Positions 1-37,100 of a DNA stretch of 37,100 bases are shown one piece after another. The DNA comes from an uncultured Eubacterium sp. (lineage in GTDB: Bacteria > Bacillota > Clostridia > Lachnospirales > Lachnospiraceae). Where the stretch lies: positions 1 through 37,100 of the forward strand of contig CANDJC010000039.1 of the NCBI GenBank assembly GCA_947384955.1, written 5' to 3'. Both the position numbers and the translations under genes were made by a program. Each line of letters opens with the position of its first letter. The stretch's first letter is position 1. Under the pieces are notes generated by a model that saw only the letters and a list, made by a program, of their open reading frames with translations, searched no databases and was not told the DNA's origin.

Positions 1-64
1 AACATTCCGGAGCCGTCACAGGAATCCGGTGCATCTTCCCGTCACCCGGCGTCCGAGAGGCCAT
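1..64 (-). repeat. Terminal part of dispersed structured repeat (copy A)
   Basis: This stretch is close to the reverse complement of 36950-37012, sharing the GGCC-YCTCGGACGCCGG box, the ACGGGAAGATGC stretch and the GGCTCC-AGAATGTT end. The rest of the copy lies beyond the window. The box begins four bases past the TGA of the minus-strand HAD gene (TGATAATGGCC), much as copy E abuts the stop codon of the gene at 29436. No transposase lies nearby. Identity is by internal comparison only. Confidence 0.75.
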
Positions 65-3018: not shown

Positions 3019-3066
3019 TGGCCCCTCGGACGCCGGATAATGAGAAAATGCACTGGTTTTCGAAAG
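3019..3066 (+). repeat. Truncated end of dispersed repeat (copy B)
   Basis: The sequence begins GGCCCCTCGGACGCCGG and continues with a diverged version of the next 30 bases seen at 36950-36995 (AxAATGCxCTGG). After about 48 bases the similarity stops in AT-rich DNA. No second arm is visible, so this is a solo or decayed end. Confidence 0.65.
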
Positions 3067-4450: not shown

Positions 4451-4849
4451 ATGAATAAATTATTTTATCCCGCATTATTTCACAAAGCAGAAGAAGGAGG
4501 ATTCTGGGTATCTTTTCCAGATATTAAAGAATGTCTCACCCAGGGTGACGATATGGCACAGGCTTATGAAATGGCCGTAGATGCACTTGGCCTGGCCCTT
4601 ATCTGCCGCGAAGAAGAACACCAGGAATTACCGGCAGCTTCAGACCCGACCCAGATAACCCCAGAACCAGATTCATTTCTTGTAGTAATCGAATTTGATA
4701 TGTCAGCATATAAGAAACGAACCAATTCCCGGGCCGTGAAAAAAACTCTAAGTATACCGGAATGGCTCAATGAAGCAGCTATGGCGATGGATATCAATTT
4801 CTCACAGGTGCTTCAGGAAGCCCTTCTTCTAAAAATCCAGGCACAATAA
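4451..4849 (+). CDS. hicB: HicB-family antitoxin
   Basis: A 132-residue HicB antitoxin. The N-terminal half is the partial RNase-H-like domain (YPALFHKAEEGGFWVSFPDI and the following region up to LGLAL) that covers HicA. The C-terminal part (KKTLSIPEWLNEAAMAMDIN, then FSQVLQEALLLK) resembles a ribbon-helix-helix DNA-binding domain, fitting the palindrome in the promoter. GGAGG lies about nine bases before ATG. It is cotranscribed with hicA and followed by a hairpin terminator. The pair is a self-contained module inserted between decayed DNA and the atp operon. Confidence 0.93.
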   Translation: MNKLFYPALFHKAEEGGFWVSFPDIKECLTQGDDMAQAYEMAVDALGLALICREEEHQELPAASDPTQITPEPDSFLVVIEFDMSAYKKRTNSRAVKKTLSIPEWLNEAAMAMDINFSQVLQEALLLKIQAQ

Positions 4850-4934: not shown

Positions 4935-5342
4935 TCATTGAACCGCATCAATTCTGACAAGAGCCTTTTTCAGTGCAATCTCCGCACGCTTCACATCCAG
5001 CCCGGCCTCTTTCACCTTAAGCCTCCGCTCTGCGCGCATCTTTGCTTCTTCCGCACGGTTTTTGTCTATTTCATCCGGCCACTCTGCAATCTCAGCCAGC
5101 AGCGTCACCTTATCGCCAAGTATCTCAGCAAACCCGGTATGCACTGCTGCCTTTTTCACCCCGCCGCTCTCCGTAATCTTTACAATTCCGGGAGCAAGCA
5201 CTGTCGTCAGCGGAATATGGTTTTTATAAACACCGATATCGCCTTCTGTCGTGGTAAATTCAATCATAGCGGCATCGCCAGTATAAAACACACGTTCCGG
5301 CGTAATAATCTCTACCTTAAATAATTTATTTGCATCTGCCAT
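4935..5342 (-). CDS. atpC: ATP synthase F1 epsilon subunit
   Basis: A 135-residue epsilon subunit, last gene of the atp operon. The N-terminal beta-sandwich is recognisable in FKVEIITPERVFYTGDAAMI and GDIGVYKNHIPLTTVLAPG. The C-terminal helical hairpin (about residues 90-130) is Arg/Lys/Glu/Ala-rich. Epsilon is part of the central stalk with gamma and can restrain ATP hydrolysis through its C-terminal helices. ATG has AGGGGTGA upstream, and the gap to atpD is 11 bases. A hairpin terminator follows. Confidence 0.97.
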   Translation of the reverse strand: MADANKLFKVEIITPERVFYTGDAAMIEFTTTEGDIGVYKNHIPLTTVLAPGIVKITESGGVKKAAVHTGFAEILGDKVTLLAEIAEWPDEIDKNRAEEAKMRAERRLKVKEAGLDVKRAEIALKKALVRIDAVQ

Positions 5343-19731: not shown

Positions 19732-20547
19732 ATGAAAATCGAAAAAGTAAGTGACACCCAGATTCGTTGCACACTGACTAAGGAAGATCTCGCAGACCGC
19801 CACTTAAAGATTAGTGAACTGGCATACGGCACCGAAAAAGCTAAAAATCTCTTTCGCGATATGATGCAGCAAGCTTCTTATGAGTTTGGATTTGAAGCCG
19901 ACGATATCCCTTTGATGATAGAAGCAATTCCAGTATCATCCGATACCATTATTCTGCTGATTACCAAAGTAGAATACCCGGAAGAGCTGGATACCCGTTT
20001 CTCCAAATTTTCAGATGCTGATTACGATGATTCTTTCTCAGGCTATGGCTCAGACCAGGGCGAACCTTACGAAGCTGCCAGCGCCAATGATATTTTAGAC
20101 TGGTTCCAGAAGATTCAGCAGGAAGCCAGAGCCAATACAGAAAATGTGAAAAAGAAAAAGAATAAACCAGAAGACTTCATTCCATTAGATCAGGCTGTCA
20201 GACGTGAAGCGAAAGAAACTGTTCCTAGTTCTCCTGCTATCGAAATCCCTGTTGATTTGACAAAACTGTTCCTGATTCATAATCTGGATACGATGTCTAA
20301 AATCTCAGCTGTATTAGAAGGTTATTACCATGGAGACAATACTTTGTTCCGCGACTCACAGAGTCATGTATTTTATCTCGTAGTCCATAAAAGTTCTCAT
20401 ACACCTGAGGAGTTTAACAAAGTATGCAATATTTTATCTGAATACTCTACACAGATTAATTTTACAGATTCCATAGAAGCTTATTTTAATGAACATTTTG
20501 ACTGTATGATACGCAGCAGGGCGTTACAGCAGTTTGCGGCTATTTGA
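19732..20547 (+). CDS. mecA: Adaptor protein MecA
   Basis: A 271-residue MecA. The N-terminal substrate-binding domain begins MKIEKVSDTQIRCTLTKEDL and includes ELAYGTEKAKNLFRDMMQQA. An acidic and lysine-rich linker (about 90-165) follows. The C-terminal ClpC-binding domain is about 180-271 (FLIHNLDTMSKISAVLEGYY, VVHKSSHTPEEFNKVCNILS). MecA delivers substrates to ClpCP and promotes ClpC hexamer assembly. GGGAG lies nine bases before ATG. It is monocistronic with its own promoter and terminator and converges on a DUF1858 gene across a large palindromic repeat. Length is slightly above the Bacillus protein because of the linker. Confidence 0.93.
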   Translation: MKIEKVSDTQIRCTLTKEDLADRHLKISELAYGTEKAKNLFRDMMQQASYEFGFEADDIPLMIEAIPVSSDTIILLITKVEYPEELDTRFSKFSDADYDDSFSGYGSDQGEPYEAASANDILDWFQKIQQEARANTENVKKKKNKPEDFIPLDQAVRREAKETVPSSPAIEIPVDLTKLFLIHNLDTMSKISAVLEGYYHGDNTLFRDSQSHVFYLVVHKSSHTPEEFNKVCNILSEYSTQINFTDSIEAYFNEHFDCMIRSRALQQFAAI

Positions 20548-20603
20548 TGATTTTTGAGAAATGACCTTTTCACTGGATGAGATTTTTGGGAGGGCATGTA
20601 AAA

Positions 20604-20633
20604 ACAGGGCATAGTGTTATGCCCTGTTTTTTA
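20604..20633 (+). terminator. mecA terminator
   Basis: ACAGGGCAT - AGTGTT - ATGCCCTGT followed by TTTTTAT: a nine-base-pair GC-rich stem with a U-tract, 56 bases after the mecA stop. Confidence 0.92.
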
Positions 20634-20706
20634 TGTTCTGACGAGGAATTGTGGAGAAAAGGAATTGGGAAATGGAAGAGTAATTGGGGATTTAGGTTGT
20701 TTTTGG

Positions 20707-20993
20707 ACGGACGCTGGATGGAGAAACTTTTTCCTTCTGATGTTCCGCTTCCGAAAAGCAGGAAGTTCTAAGTTTTCTGCGTCAAAGCTGTGGCAGCGGA
20801 CGGACCGGCGCCTGATGCCCTGGCGTTACTGGAAGCTCCAAGCAATGGCACTGGCAGGCGCCTTTTTGGGACTTTAAAGTTTTATTATAATAAAGGCGGA
20901 GTGTCCCCAAATCCTGGGTATTGAGCAGAAAACAAAGAACTTCCAGCTTTTCTCCAGAGTCACATCAGAAGGAAAAAGTTTCTCCATCCAGCT
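20707..20993 (+). repeat. Structured repeat element copy C (left half of large palindrome)
   Basis: About 287 bases. Its ends are inverted repeats of roughly 60 bases (GGACGCTGGATGGAGAAA ... TTTCTCCATCCAGC, plus CTTCTGATGT and AGCAGGAAGTTCT partners). The core hairpin is 20807-20862, with GGCGCC at both ends and GATGCCCTGGCGTTACTGG inside. TTCTGCGT and GGCAGCGGACGGACCGGC precede it; ATTGAGCAGAA follows it. A perfect palindrome TTTATTATAATAAA lies at 20881-20894. The same ordered boxes occur at 29k and 37k. Copy D is its inverted partner. The open frames inside are not supported as genes. Confidence 0.85.
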
Positions 20994-21108
20994 GTTTTTG
21001 GCGGATTCAAAGTTAATCTGGATTTCTGAGTTAAATGGTTTTACATTACAATCTGTTTAAACATTAAAAATTAGAACCCGAACTAATAAATAAAATTCTG
21101 CCAATACC

Positions 21109-21400
21109 AGCCGGAGGGAGGAGATGTTTCCTTTCTGATGTGACTCTGGAGAAAAGCTGGAAGTTCTTAACTTTCTGCTCAATATCCAGGATTTGGGGAC
21201 ACACCGCCTTTATTATAATAAAACTTTGAAGTCCCCAAAAGGCGCCTGCCAGTGCCACTTCTTAGAGCTTCCAGTAACGCCAGGGCATCAGGCGCCGGTC
21301 CGTCCGCTGCCACAGCTTTAACGCAGAAAGTTTAGAACTTCCTGCTTTTCGGAAGCGGAACATCAGAAAGGAAACATCTCCTTCCTCCGGCGTCCGTTCA
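21109..21400 (-). repeat. Structured repeat element copy D (right half of large palindrome)
   Basis: The reverse complement of this segment matches copy C at roughly 90 percent along its whole length, with scattered substitutions and one-base indels. The core hairpin is 21241-21296, GGCGCC to GGCGCC. Its outer end reads CTCCTTCCTCCGGCGTCCGTT. The 115-base spacer 20994-21108 between the copies shows no gene. The pair lies between the converging 3' ends of mecA and the DUF1858 gene. Confidence 0.85.
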
Positions 21401-21437
21401 GAAACAACGTTCAACAATCAATTTCCCATAAAAAAAT

Positions 21438-21476
21438 AAAGCCAGATACAGCCTCCTCAGCATTGTACCCAGCTTT
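21438..21476 (-). terminator. Terminator of the DUF1858 gene
   Basis: Minus strand AAAGCTGGGTACA, 13-base loop, TGTATCTGGCTTT, then ATTTTTTTATG; two G-U pairs. It lies about 40 bases past the stop. Confidence 0.8.
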
Positions 21477-21518
21477 CATTTTTAATTACTATTCATTTAA
21501 TGAAACTGCATATCTCAT

Positions 21519-21731
21519 TTATGCTTCATTTTGTGCCAGAAAATCATTAATTTCTTTCACAAGCGAATCTGCTTCAATTCCATGAACCATAGCTGCTTCT
21601 TCGATTGTTTCCATCTGAGAAGACGGGCATCCAAGACAGTGCATTCCGATATTTAATAAAATCGGTGCAATTTTTTCATTAATCTGAAGCAGTTCCCCTA
21701 TCATTGTATTTTTTGTAACCTGCTGTGCCAT
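21519..21731 (-). CDS. DUF1858 domain protein
   Basis: A 70-residue DUF1858 protein. This domain also occurs at the N-terminus of ScdA/RIC-type iron-sulfur repair proteins and near hybrid-cluster proteins; as a stand-alone gene its role is not established. Seen: TKNTMIGELLQINEKIAPIL, then the conserved GMHCLGCPSSQMETIEEAAM with a CxxC pair, and a helical C-terminus. The CxxC may bind metal or act in redox; that is inference. GGAGAAACAGATT precedes ATG. It is monocistronic with its own promoter and terminator. Confidence 0.88.
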   Translation of the reverse strand: MAQQVTKNTMIGELLQINEKIAPILLNIGMHCLGCPSSQMETIEEAAMVHGIEADSLVKEINDFLAQNEA

Positions 21732-22107
21732 AATCTGTTTCTCCTTTTCTTAGTATTCAGGCATTCATAATCTGCCCTTATTCCTAATAAATATACTATA
21801 GTGCTGTTTTAATGTCAAATTATAAGTTTACGTTTTATTTGTTTTTATATATCATCTATTACAGTTCAGATATATTTGTGTATATTTACTGTACACCGAA
21901 TAAAAGTGATTCAGGAGTCTTTCTGAACTGTTGCTATCTTGCAGCTGATAAAAATTTTGTACTATTTTATTAACACCAGTTTACAGCTTTTTTATATTTC
22001 AATGCTTTCTGTGAAAATTTGAACTATATATTGTACCTAATTATGGCAGAGTAATCTATATATGTATAGAATCAAAAACTTGTAAACTGCTGTTTTATTA
22101 AGATACA
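21732..22107. other. Intergenic region without a supported gene
   Basis: Besides the DUF1858 promoter near 21790-21818, this 376-base AT-rich stretch shows no open frame with a ribosome binding site, no convincing terminator for the gene at 22108 and no repeat. Confidence 0.5.
21790..21818 (-). promoter_or_regulatory. Promoter of the DUF1858 gene
   Basis: Minus-strand TTGACA (21818-21813), 17 bases, TATATT (21795-21790). The -35 is a perfect match. The leader is about 55 nt. Confidence 0.75.
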
Positions 22108-28924: not shown

Positions 28925-28984
28925 TCATGTTAAAGCATTAAATAAAAGAGTTTTCATGATGTATACAAAAAAGTGTGTCATATT

Positions 28985-29435
28985 TGGGATAAGGGGGAGA
29001 TTGTCGGGGACGGGACGCGTTACATACGAAGAATTCCTTCTAAACGTTCATATAATTCACGTAAATACAGCCAAAACCAGCCGGGTGATGTGGAAATGCC
29101 CTGAATTCCAGCGACATAAGAACACTCTCCTCAAGACGTTCAAAAATTCACGTAAATACAGCCAAAACCAGCCGGGTGATGTGGAAATGCCCTGGATTTC
29201 TGCGACATTGGAAGAATGTTTAGAAGCCCTTAGTATTCTGCTCAATAACCAGGCGGCGAAGCCGAAGCGGCACCTTTAGCTTATGGCTGTAAGCCAGGGC
29301 GAACTAGGTGCCGCGACCGTCCGCAGCCAAAACGCAGGCGCAGAATACTTAGGGCTTCTTAACATTCTGGAACCGGAGCTGAAATCCAGGGCATTTCCAC
29401 ATCACCCGGCGTCCGGGAGGCCGAAAACTCCCCCT
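28985..29435. repeat. Structured repeat element copy E with duplicated arm
   Basis: The main body is a large imperfect hairpin. The left arm 29171-29243 and right arm 29339-29410 pair (CCGGGTGATGTGGAAATGCC; GTTTAGAAGCCCTTAGTATT and their complements). They enclose a core hairpin 29267-29314, whose outer stem GCGGCACCT/AGGTGCCGC contains GCTTATGGCTGTAAGC. The left outer segment is tandemly duplicated with a period of about 92 bases (29045 and 29137 onward, both with TTCACGTAAATACAGCC). Both outer ends carry AAGGGGGAG in inverted orientation; the right one overlaps the stop codon of the gene at 29436. No supported gene is inside. Confidence 0.85.
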
Positions 29436-31079
29436 TTACTGAATCTCAGTAACCGTATGCAGCCCGCTCTCTTCCCGTGAGAATGTCATTCGAATCACAT
29501 CCCCCGTCTGATACCGTATAATCCCAATCAGATTCTTATCCGACACATCAACATCAAATATATCCTCTGAATTCTCCAGCGCCACATAATAATGCGTATT
29601 CCCCTCAATCACCACAGGAGCCGACGCCGCAATCTTTCCCGTAATCTGCTCATACAGGCTTTCATCCTTCGCCTCTGTAATCCCGTTTGTGCCCAGCAGT
29701 GATACATATGCCTTTTCGCATTCCTTCACAGTATCCCCGATAGCAACCCACTGGTACTTCTGCACATTAACCATAGCATATTTTTTGACAAGGCCGGCGC
29801 CATCTTTCAGGGCCATGAAATAAGTCGGCTCGTTTGAAATATTCAACAGAAGAGGAAAAGTTGCCTGGTAGCCGAGATTCTGCACCTGGCCTTCTGCCGA
29901 GGACATAGCGGAGTCTTCGATTGCCCCTTCCACTTTGTAATATTTCGTTTCCATCGTACGCTGGTTCATTAATACAAATCCGACATTGGACTGGTCGCCG
30001 CTGACGGAGGTTACTCCTGTGTATACCCATACATCGTCATCCAGCGCAATGTAATTATATCCGTTTGTCGCTTTCAGGCAGTCTTTCTGGCCAAGAATGC
30101 TGTTAAAGAAACCGTGTTTATAAATTCCGTAGTAGTTATACAGTTCGGTTAACAGTTCTGCTGAATAGACCTTGTCAATCCAGTTCGGTACTTTTTCTAC
30201 CGGATAATCCGTGCATTCTCCTGTCACCGCATTGCACAGTACCACATTTCCCACTGTCTGTCCGCCGAATAAGCCGATATTAAATTTTTTGACAGGGCAT
30301 ACCCAGTACGGTGTGCCTTCATCGTCGATTTCAAAGAATATCTGGTCGTCAAATATATAAGTTGGATAATGAAAACGAAGATGACGGTAAATATTGCGGT
30401 TAAAATATTCGGATTTGGAATATTTGATTGCCTGGCTCAGTTTGACGCATTCTGTGTTCTGCGTAGCCATATCGATTCTGATATATGCCGGAATGCCTGT
30501 TTTCTGGTTTGTCAGCCATTTAATTTCATTGGCATATACAAGCGGCGTCACACGCACCGGAGTATCTTTATAGTTAATCTGGGTATAGTCAGAACCTACC
30601 TCAAACTGTGAAACCATATCTACCATGCTTCCCATTTTCCGGTTTCCTAACAGTTCCGCGGATTCTTTATCCAGAAGAGGTATCGTATTATAGTTTGTCT
30701 GCTGGATATCTTCTGTAAAATCGCTTTCTTTCACAGTCATAAGCTTCTGGTACTTATCAGCGTTTACAATCGGTGAAGATAAAATATTTCCAGCCGCAAA
30801 TATGAGAAACACCAGGATGAGCAAAGCGCAGCCCGCTTTTACAAGTTTGAATTCTTTGAATACATATTCTACCGTTTTCACCTGCACGACATTCGATTTT
30901 GACTGTCTGCGCATCTGAATGACTGCGTATAAAACCGTAACTGCTGCAATCAAAAGCCCCAGTGTCGTCCAGAATCCGGCTGCGTGGATATTAATGGCCG
31001 GAAGGGTAATATAGTAATAAATTCCTAAAAACAGGAATAAAACCAGCAATAACAATAATTTTTTACTTACTTTTTTCAT
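29436..31079 (-). CDS. Membrane protein of unknown function with large extracytoplasmic domain
   Basis: A 547-residue protein. Three hydrophobic segments lie near the N-terminus (about 7-25 LLLLLVLFLFLGIYYYITL, 35-55 and 80-102 AGCALLILVFLIFAAGNILS). About 440 mostly beta-rich residues outside the membrane follow. That part includes RVTPLVYANEIKWLTNQKTG, FEIDDEGTPYWVCPVK and GGQTVGNVVLCNAVTG, patterns seen in a group of clostridial proteins often labelled only as membrane protein. No enzymatic motif was found. GGAATTTT precedes ATG. The gene stands alone between the rpsF-ssb-rpsR terminator and a dispersed repeat that touches its stop codon. Confidence 0.85.
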   Translation of the reverse strand: MKKVSKKLLLLLVLFLFLGIYYYITLPAINIHAAGFWTTLGLLIAAVTVLYAVIQMRRQSKSNVVQVKTVEYVFKEFKLVKAGCALLILVFLIFAAGNILSSPIVNADKYQKLMTVKESDFTEDIQQTNYNTIPLLDKESAELLGNRKMGSMVDMVSQFEVGSDYTQINYKDTPVRVTPLVYANEIKWLTNQKTGIPAYIRIDMATQNTECVKLSQAIKYSKSEYFNRNIYRHLRFHYPTYIFDDQIFFEIDDEGTPYWVCPVKKFNIGLFGGQTVGNVVLCNAVTGECTDYPVEKVPNWIDKVYSAELLTELYNYYGIYKHGFFNSILGQKDCLKATNGYNYIALDDDVWVYTGVTSVSGDQSNVGFVLMNQRTMETKYYKVEGAIEDSAMSSAEGQVQNLGYQATFPLLLNISNEPTYFMALKDGAGLVKKYAMVNVQKYQWVAIGDTVKECEKAYVSLLGTNGITEAKDESLYEQITGKIAASAPVVIEGNTHYYVALENSEDIFDVDVSDKNLIGIIRYQTGDVIRMTFSREESGLHTVTEIQ

Positions 31080-36786: not shown

Positions 36787-36930
36787 AAACTTTCCGCCTT
36801 CATCCTTTCTGCTCCTGCCCATTCGTGTTATCTAAAACTTTCTGCTCCTATCCTATATACAAATTCAAAATAATCCCGGTAACAAGAGGATTTCTGTGTT
36901 ACTGGGATTACATAAACTATAGCGGATTAG

Positions 36931-37100
36931 ATAAGGGGGATGTGCTGGCCCCTCGGACGCCGGGTGACGGGAAGATGCGCTGGCTTCCTGCGACGGCTCC
37001 AGAATGTTAAGAATCCCTAAGCATTCTGCGTCTATGCTGTGGCCCCGGACGGGACGCGGCACCTAGTTCGCCCTGGCCTGCAGCCAGCAGCTAAAGGTGC
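36931..37100 (+). repeat. Structured repeat element copy F (cut by window end)
   Basis: It begins ATAAGGGGGAT, then GGCCCCTCGGACGCCGG and the arm through AGAATGTTAAGAATCCC. CTGCGTCTATGCTGTGG and CGGACGGGACGCGGC follow. The core hairpin starts at 37056 (GCGGCACCTAGTTCGCCCTG; AGGTGC at the last bases). The order of boxes equals copy E read on the minus strand. It lies upstream of tatD. In the rest of the 36823-36930 gap I see only a weak -35/-10-like pair for tatD. Confidence 0.8.

Follow-up and report, generated by a model that had tools for sequence, protein, structure and literature searches.

The hairpin repeats dispersed over the DNA analysed here most probably represent non-autonomous transposons (MITEs), a family limited to one genus and built of paired, mostly heterotypic, compensated hairpins. 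Terminal inverted repeats and 8-bp duplications in relatives mark the units as transposons, and these features, together with small size and lack of coding capacity, place them among the MITEs. The usual unit, which would also be the ancestral one, consists of an inverted repeat, an outward hairpin, a spacer, a second outward hairpin with different outer arms, and a closing inverted repeat; single-hairpin and hairpin-less forms of the unit exist as well. The MITE class is already known, and what is new is an unusually elaborate member of it. In the open-licence PubMed Central literature, no description of this hairpin family was found.

The window, that is, the whole stretch of 37,100 nucleotides that was analysed, is an entire contig (G000:C39) of a genome of 5.06 Mb in 271 contigs (the own genome, G000), and the copies at positions 1 and 37100 are therefore cut by the assembly. 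An earlier sequence-only reading had described a dispersed family with shared boxes, long copies and end fragments; all of these are present where it placed them, and the family is real. The four long copies that it listed exist; two lie on the minus strand (20707-21007 and 36946-37100) and two on the plus strand (21093-21398 and 29148-29422). The region 28985-29435, which it had taken as one copy, is instead composed of a full copy, a partial arm and the apparent remnant of a partner. The family is present in the window as follows.

1-63, plus strand: 3' end of a copy truncated at the contig start.
3019-3062, minus strand: outer-end remnant that has lost its hairpin and, by eye, continues into sequence resembling an inner end.
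20707-21007, minus strand: subfamily-2 hairpin, left partner in a head-to-head pair.
21008-21092, no strand: spacer separating the subfamily-2 partners (profile limits).
21093-21398, plus strand: subfamily-2 hairpin, right partner.
28990-29028, minus strand: probable remnant of a deleted left partner, a G-rich outer end fused to an inner TTAC end (judged by eye; missed by the profile).
29057-29121, plus strand: tandem partial 5' arm (profile positions 2-66) adjoining the full copy 29148-29422, from repeat and profile search.
29148-29422, plus strand: complete hairpin copy with a T-type outer arm and its core at 29235-29346 (covariance-model match G000:C39:29235-29346, E 3.6e-35).
29423-29435, plus strand: C-rich outer tail; it directly adjoins the stop codon of the ORF at 29436-31079 (minus strand).
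36920-36945, minus strand: outer tail that may contain a decayed terminal inverted repeat (10/15 bases).
36946-37100, minus strand: hairpin copy truncated at the contig end, with a T-type arm.

The copies at 20707 and 21093 form a second subfamily with a larger core. The change in the core stem pointed out earlier is real, with GGCACC at 29269-29274 and GGTGCC at 29308-29313 replaced by GGCGCC at 21241-21246 and GGCGCC at 21291-21296. The earlier statement that no transposase or reverse transcriptase lies nearby also holds among the window ORFs scanned against Pfam (34 of 55, those of at least 90 aa). An Rfam search of the window returned no family above the gathering score at these places, with only weak sub-threshold matches.

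A hairpin measures about 230-280 nt and was described by a profile of 277 positions, aligned from 56 own-genome copies. On the plus strand, its 5' start reads TTCAYGTAAA...AAAACCAGCCGGG and is followed by an outer arm of about 30 bp and an unequal internal loop. Inner arms of 8, 9 and 10 bp, parted by two U-U mismatches, precede a conserved core formed by an 8-bp stem (GCGGCACC/GGTGCCGC) and an apical hairpin, after which the arms return; the 3' end reads CCCGGCGTCCG..GGCCA and passes into the C-rich tail. In the repeat search, the arms 29171-29241 and 29340-29410 were self-complementary over 71 nt (86%) and the arms 21110-21178 and 21323-21391 over 69 nt (87%), while 20729-20976 and 21127-21374 are 93% complementary over 248 nt. 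Compared with dinucleotide shuffles, the folds reach z-scores of -12.9 and -13.3 for the two strands of 29148-29424 and -12.2 for 21100-21400.

Evidence for transposition comes from the ends of the units. Units of sister species end in the inverted repeats GTAACAGTTCAGATAGGGTGTTAC, and the 24-bp inverted repeat was seen in the outer flanks in genomes G007, G009 and G010. Among seven hairpin-family units having both repeats, five of which measure 319-706 b, four are flanked by 8-bp target duplications with 7-8 of 8 bases equal. These are a two-hairpin unit (L208/L194) bordered on either side by AATCATTG, a single-hairpin unit (L254:14299-14618) bordered likewise by TCAAAACG, a hairpin-less remnant of 53 b (L256) flanked by TTCAAAAC, and a second hairpin-less remnant (L263) with 7/8 flanking bases equal; the other three (L209, L223 and L261) have only 3/8. 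Over all loci examined, 17 of the 37 inverted-repeat couples (at most three mismatches each, some loci giving two overlapping couples) have 7-8 of 8 flanking bases equal, compared with 1.4% under random pairing. In the own genome, no convincing target duplication was found, and decayed inverted repeats survive as remnants: at least 11/15 repeat bases are matched in 8 of 79 outer flanks, against 0.5 in shuffles and 1 and 0 for two control patterns, and the other 71 stay below 11/15. Seven of these eight remnants lie 15-22 nt from the element end; one (C44:15082) lies elsewhere and is perhaps a chance match.

Empty sites in relatives are further evidence of insertion. The stretch corresponding to window 28963-29443 measures 12 b in the relative L101, and that corresponding to 20545-21575 about 120 b. 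L099 carries a hairpin pair at the site of window 28963-29443, and L104 has a single copy at another site that is vacant in the window, L101, L102 and L103. It is extremely improbable that the family merely consists of large DNA hairpins produced by replication accidents (inverted duplication) without any transposition. Tandem arm arrays and lost hairpins do indicate local instability; however, homologous copies occupy unrelated sites with empty counterparts in relatives, and the target duplications refute such an origin for the units having them. A different palindromic element was seen by eye in the intergenic site of window 28963-29436 in L100 (about 5060-5268, window orientation).

The family is abundant and restricted in range. 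With the 288-base query 29148-29435, 58 matches were obtained in the own genome, with the best 40 of 535 candidate places scored. The search by covariance model that the sequence-only reading had proposed gave at least 150 matches in the own genome and extended the family to relatives: 9 of 13 genus genomes, own included, have matches, ranging from one in G004 to at least 150 in each of G000, G003 and G005. There was no match in 297 other sampled genera of the same taxonomic family under stricter Infernal filters, which lose some weak matches, and a DNA search agrees with this range (9 of 61 genomes). Plasmid and phage collections gave no match, and neither did IMG/VR for one exact core pattern. 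Among named relatives, Eubacterium plexicaudatum ASF492 and uncultured 'Eubacterium' genomes come closest; the seven best loci for the ORF that adjoins the window copy have 81-84% protein identity. The 847 kb surveyed at length were partly picked for having matches and give no genome density. On contigs partly chosen for copies, 17 of 30 inspected contig ends lie within 30 nt of a copy, for example window positions 1 and 37100, which indicates that short-read assemblies of the genus break on the hairpins. At one contig end, in L100 (9200-9699), a 34-nt tandem array adjoins a hairpin end, by eye.

Hairpins are regularly arranged in head-to-head pairs. Among neighbouring couples less than 1300 b apart on the sampled contigs, 25 of 28 are (-)(+), with their 5' ends on the spacer; the remaining three are tandem, each with a partial copy, and none is (+)(-). 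The partners mostly differ in the type of their outer arm, as 16 aligned couples comprise 14 A/T, one T/T and one undetermined couple, and two A/A couples, at C55 and C59:1-636, are found outside this set. Identity between the outer arms of partners is 62.1%, against 73.7% over 1914 couples that are not partners, and none of 5000 samples fell as low; for the inner parts it is 93.3% against 90.9%, with 3 of 5000 samples reaching as high. Subfamily-2 pairs are heterotypic by eye. In G009, the spacers of L220-L223 have stretches in common, in both orientations, outside the 30-b element margins in the query, so that hairpins and spacer have probably moved together; own-genome spacers are mostly unrelated to each other. 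The long spacer of L013 matches a second AT-rich repeat and not gene fragments. This second dispersed repeat, about 105 b long and present at window 22023-22094 (minus strand), has several copies inside hairpin-pair spacers; 62 matches to it were listed, with the best 40 of 84 candidate places in G000 scored. Tandem 5'-arm arrays also occur, with five arms in L202 and six in L205.

Three genes between partners in G000:C3 raise the thought of composite mobile units that capture cargo between their hairpins, as integron-like cassettes do. They encode a ParE-family toxin (PF05016, 9e-9), which is neighboured by a small ORF, a GNAT acetyltransferase (PF00583, 5.4e-15) and an HTH protein (PF01381, 3.8e-15), and genes between partners lie at the following places.

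L061:10177-10667 (= G000:C3:30177-30667)
L060:159-467
L060:10079-10540

However, 22 of the 26 (-)(+) couples contain no ORF (simple ORF caller, 70 aa), and the gene-bearing couples may be two insertions or have received their genes later, which makes cargo capture an unlikely account of the family.

The paired arrangement also recalls the GTAG/CGTC REPs and BIMEs, for which head-to-head heterodimers, variable spacers and broken-dimer singletons are described in PMC3733652. An origin as REP/BIME-like palindromes, moved as single-stranded DNA by a Y1 (RAYT/TIRYT) transposase, would agree with this arrangement and with the one Y1 match without inner stops in the own genome. Nevertheless, according to PMC3733652, REPs are units of 20-40 bp and the GTAG ones are tied to Y1 transposases, whereas the present hairpins measure 230-280 nt and have 8-bp target duplications. 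Moreover, Y1 matches (PF01797) do not track the family, as G002 carries it without a Y1 match and G004 has 54 Y1 matches and one covariance-model match. No Y1 gene is flanked by the element in the 10 Y1 loci examined, where only three loose repeat-like matches (4 mismatches allowed), unlike the repeat further in, were found. An REP origin is thus quite improbable, and a MITE family remains the preferred reading. The same source states that the heterodimer preference of REPs has no obvious explanation; the hairpin family offers a clean case of such preference, with outer arms that differ and inner parts more alike than chance.

RNA function is usually proved by compensatory change, and such change is very strong in this family. 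A cross-species set of 39 copies has 97.5% of its cells paired; among the 73 pairs, 42 are changed on both sides, with 311 two-sided changed cells against 84 in shuffles. Chance is excluded, because none of 500 shuffles reaches the observed pairing or two-sided count and slid structures give at most 22 two-sided pairs and 37-46% paired cells. The core, conserved in sequence between species, is 98.4% paired by itself (27 sequences), with 7 of 26 pairs changed on both sides; both the 27 cores and the 39 elements were hand-picked. In 63 own-genome copies, retained from 80 after a sequence filter aimed at subfamily 2 had removed 17, column counts give 4758 Watson-Crick cells, 90 G-U (62 in one invariant column), 12 A-C and 25 other cells. 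An earlier symmetric arm alignment (664 A-C against 178 G-U) was discarded, as it ran into the unpaired core, in favour of these column-based counts. Both U-U mismatches are identical in 63/63 own copies and are kept in 35 of 40 copies in relatives (40 of 44 retained, at most 8 other mismatches each). Additionally, an invariant plus-strand U-G pair is present in 62/62 own copies and in 33 of 39 copies of the cross-species set, 15 of them own.

The main competing explanation is that a structured non-coding RNA from the plus strand is the selected feature and the MITE only its vehicle, the compensatory changes reflecting RNA function. It is a possibility of some weight, though a clearly lesser one than the MITE reading, and it draws on the conservation of the core across species, the fixed U-U mismatches and the kept U-G pair. 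Plus-strand RNA selection predicts more G-U than A-C. In the own genome, G-U exceeds A-C by 28 to 12 in the 63 copies when the invariant U-G column is left out, with 5 of the 12 A-C cells in one poorly paired column, and by 23 to 10 among one-sided changes of close couples, which points to some selection at the RNA level. The 40 copies from relatives, on the other hand, show no clear strand bias: G-U numbers 122 and A-C 74, and the invariant column may account for as many as 40 of the G-U cells. The strand test is thus equivocal. Furthermore, there is no excess of promoter-like sites upstream of the hairpins (27 of 70 5' flanks against 26.9 in shuffles), and no Rfam family was matched. The outer flanks read outward have more such sites (23 of 78 against 9.5 in shuffles), which we take as promoters of neighbouring genes. 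Nor do the copies behave as 3'-end elements of genes, their orientation being even: the 3' side faces 39 gene 3' ends, 42 gene 5' ends and 6 contig ends. An RNA role for the hairpins is therefore unproven. The sequence-only reading had taken the compensatory change to suggest a structured RNA or a single-stranded DNA hairpin; strong covariation is borne out, but it need not mean RNA, and the element is in all probability a transposon.

The two-sided changes may also be explained at the DNA level. Between nearest-neighbour couples, through which kinship among copies was handled only roughly, 202 changes are two-sided and 64 one-sided; below 9% divergence the counts are 136 and 47, and below 6% divergence 2.4 and 0.7 per couple (10 couples). 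Since the excess persists even between the closest copies, arm-to-arm DNA copying could explain the covariation without RNA selection. A transversion is required in 77 of the 189 two-sided Watson-Crick exchanges counted between nearest couples. G-U offers no intermediate for such exchanges, which, with the two-sided excess, favours a one-step arm-to-arm process. The family offers a natural experiment on the maintenance of pairing in evolving long hairpins. According to PMC8794818, template switching in DNA has been proposed to make and maintain hairpins, and the many long-hairpin copies of a single genome, with mostly two-sided changes, bear on this claim. Long or clustered template-switch tracts were not seen, as the two-sided changes are isolated without runs (8 adjacent couples against 7.05 shuffled). 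The isolated changes agree equally well with single-mismatch correction or with ordinary compensation. Unrestrained arm copying should, moreover, have erased the fixed U-U mismatches and the unequal loops, so that selection must act too.

These observations can be assembled into a tentative mechanism for the MITE family. The inverted repeats would be served in trans by a DDE-type transposase, which the carriers may have lost. The hairpins may extrude as DNA, and replication across them could lead to arm-to-arm copying, by which arms would stay complementary and single changes would become double, as well as to the loss of whole hairpins and to spacers with tandemly duplicated 5' arms. The tandem arms (L202, L205 and window 29057-29121) and the lost hairpins (window 3019-3062 and L256) would fit DNA hairpins that disturb replication. 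Differing outer arms would let each hairpin fold on itself instead of pairing with its partner, and SbcCD-type clearance, an idea set out in PMC3733652, may be the reason for heterodimers. The conserved core and the fixed U-U mismatches would need a further constraint, either plus-strand RNA or a protein binding the folded DNA. More speculatively, and with little probability, the self-folding and regularly different hairpins might be working ends, recognised, as folded DNA or plus-strand RNA bearing the conserved core and both fixed U-U mismatches, by a transposition or host factor; arm copying would then diversify the arms without loss of the fold, and the A-with-T identity of partners would act as a code of end specificity.

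An element that mobilises the family would carry GTAACAGTTCAGATAGG ends and a transposase. For MITE status, a matching autonomous element is supporting and not required. A search over four Pfam families and loci with the repeat found no transposase with the family's inverted repeat. ORFs were listed for L270-L299 and for 8 of 20 loci retrieved for the repeat, and inspection by eye showed no transposase-like one between repeats. IS66, IS256 and ISL3 were not borne out as mobilisers in the searches with PF03050, PF00872 and PF01610. PF03050 (IS66) exceeds its cut-off in 4 of the 13 genomes of the genus; among the nine carriers it does so only in G004, G005 and G008, with no match in G000, G003, G007, G009 and G010. 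PF00872 has matches in 4 of the 13 genomes, among the carriers only in G003, G004 and G005, with none in G000, G007, G009 and G010, and PF01610 matches in none of the 13. The sequence-only reading had set its proposal against a known IS or MITE with a full-length transposase copy and no covariation; the family is indeed, most probably, a MITE, but its covariation is strong and a full-length partner was not found.

Several known systems resemble the family in part. Like the bacterial MITEs and intergenic repeats whose transcripts fold, such as ERIC, NEMIS, YPAL, Nezha, EFAR and, in the Bacillus cereus group, bcr1-bcr18, it is gene-free, intergenic, high in copy number, clade-limited and strongly folding. 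By description, the present family stands apart from these: each unit has a pair of long heterotypic hairpins, the long arms are compensated and the inverted repeat is another. YPAL, Nezha and EFAR are given as background in PMC3733652, and in PMC3446304, bcr1-3 are called MITE-like and bcr repeats lie within transcripts in 84 of 165 and 62 of 155 cases in two strains. IS66-type elements share with the family a GTAA terminus and an 8-bp direct repeat; their inverted repeat starts GTAAGCG with an 8-bp direct repeat (PMC11946415), and members with 8-bp direct repeats are described (PMC3281130). Only the GTAA of this end sequence is shared, and GCG is not. In one IS66 type of G004, the right end would read GTAAACGGTAAAACGCGAG inward, as judged from three copies compared, and none of the IS66 loci was seen with the hairpin family's end. 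Small Lachnospiraceae MITEs (about 30 b and 125-138 b) have the same GTAACAGTTCAGATAG ends and many have 8-bp duplications; no hairpin of this family was present in 30 such loci (L270-L299). Perfect 8-bp duplications accompany the GTAACAGTTCAGATAG ends in the following small MITEs from across the Lachnospiraceae.

L265:5043-5230
L105:6876-7063
L282, L286, L293, L296 and L299

Two further features of the window were recorded beside the repeats: a bacterial large SRP RNA (RF01854) at 811-1073 on the minus strand, and an ORF for a HicB-like antitoxin (PF15919) at 4451-4849 on the plus strand, adjoining ATP synthase genes.
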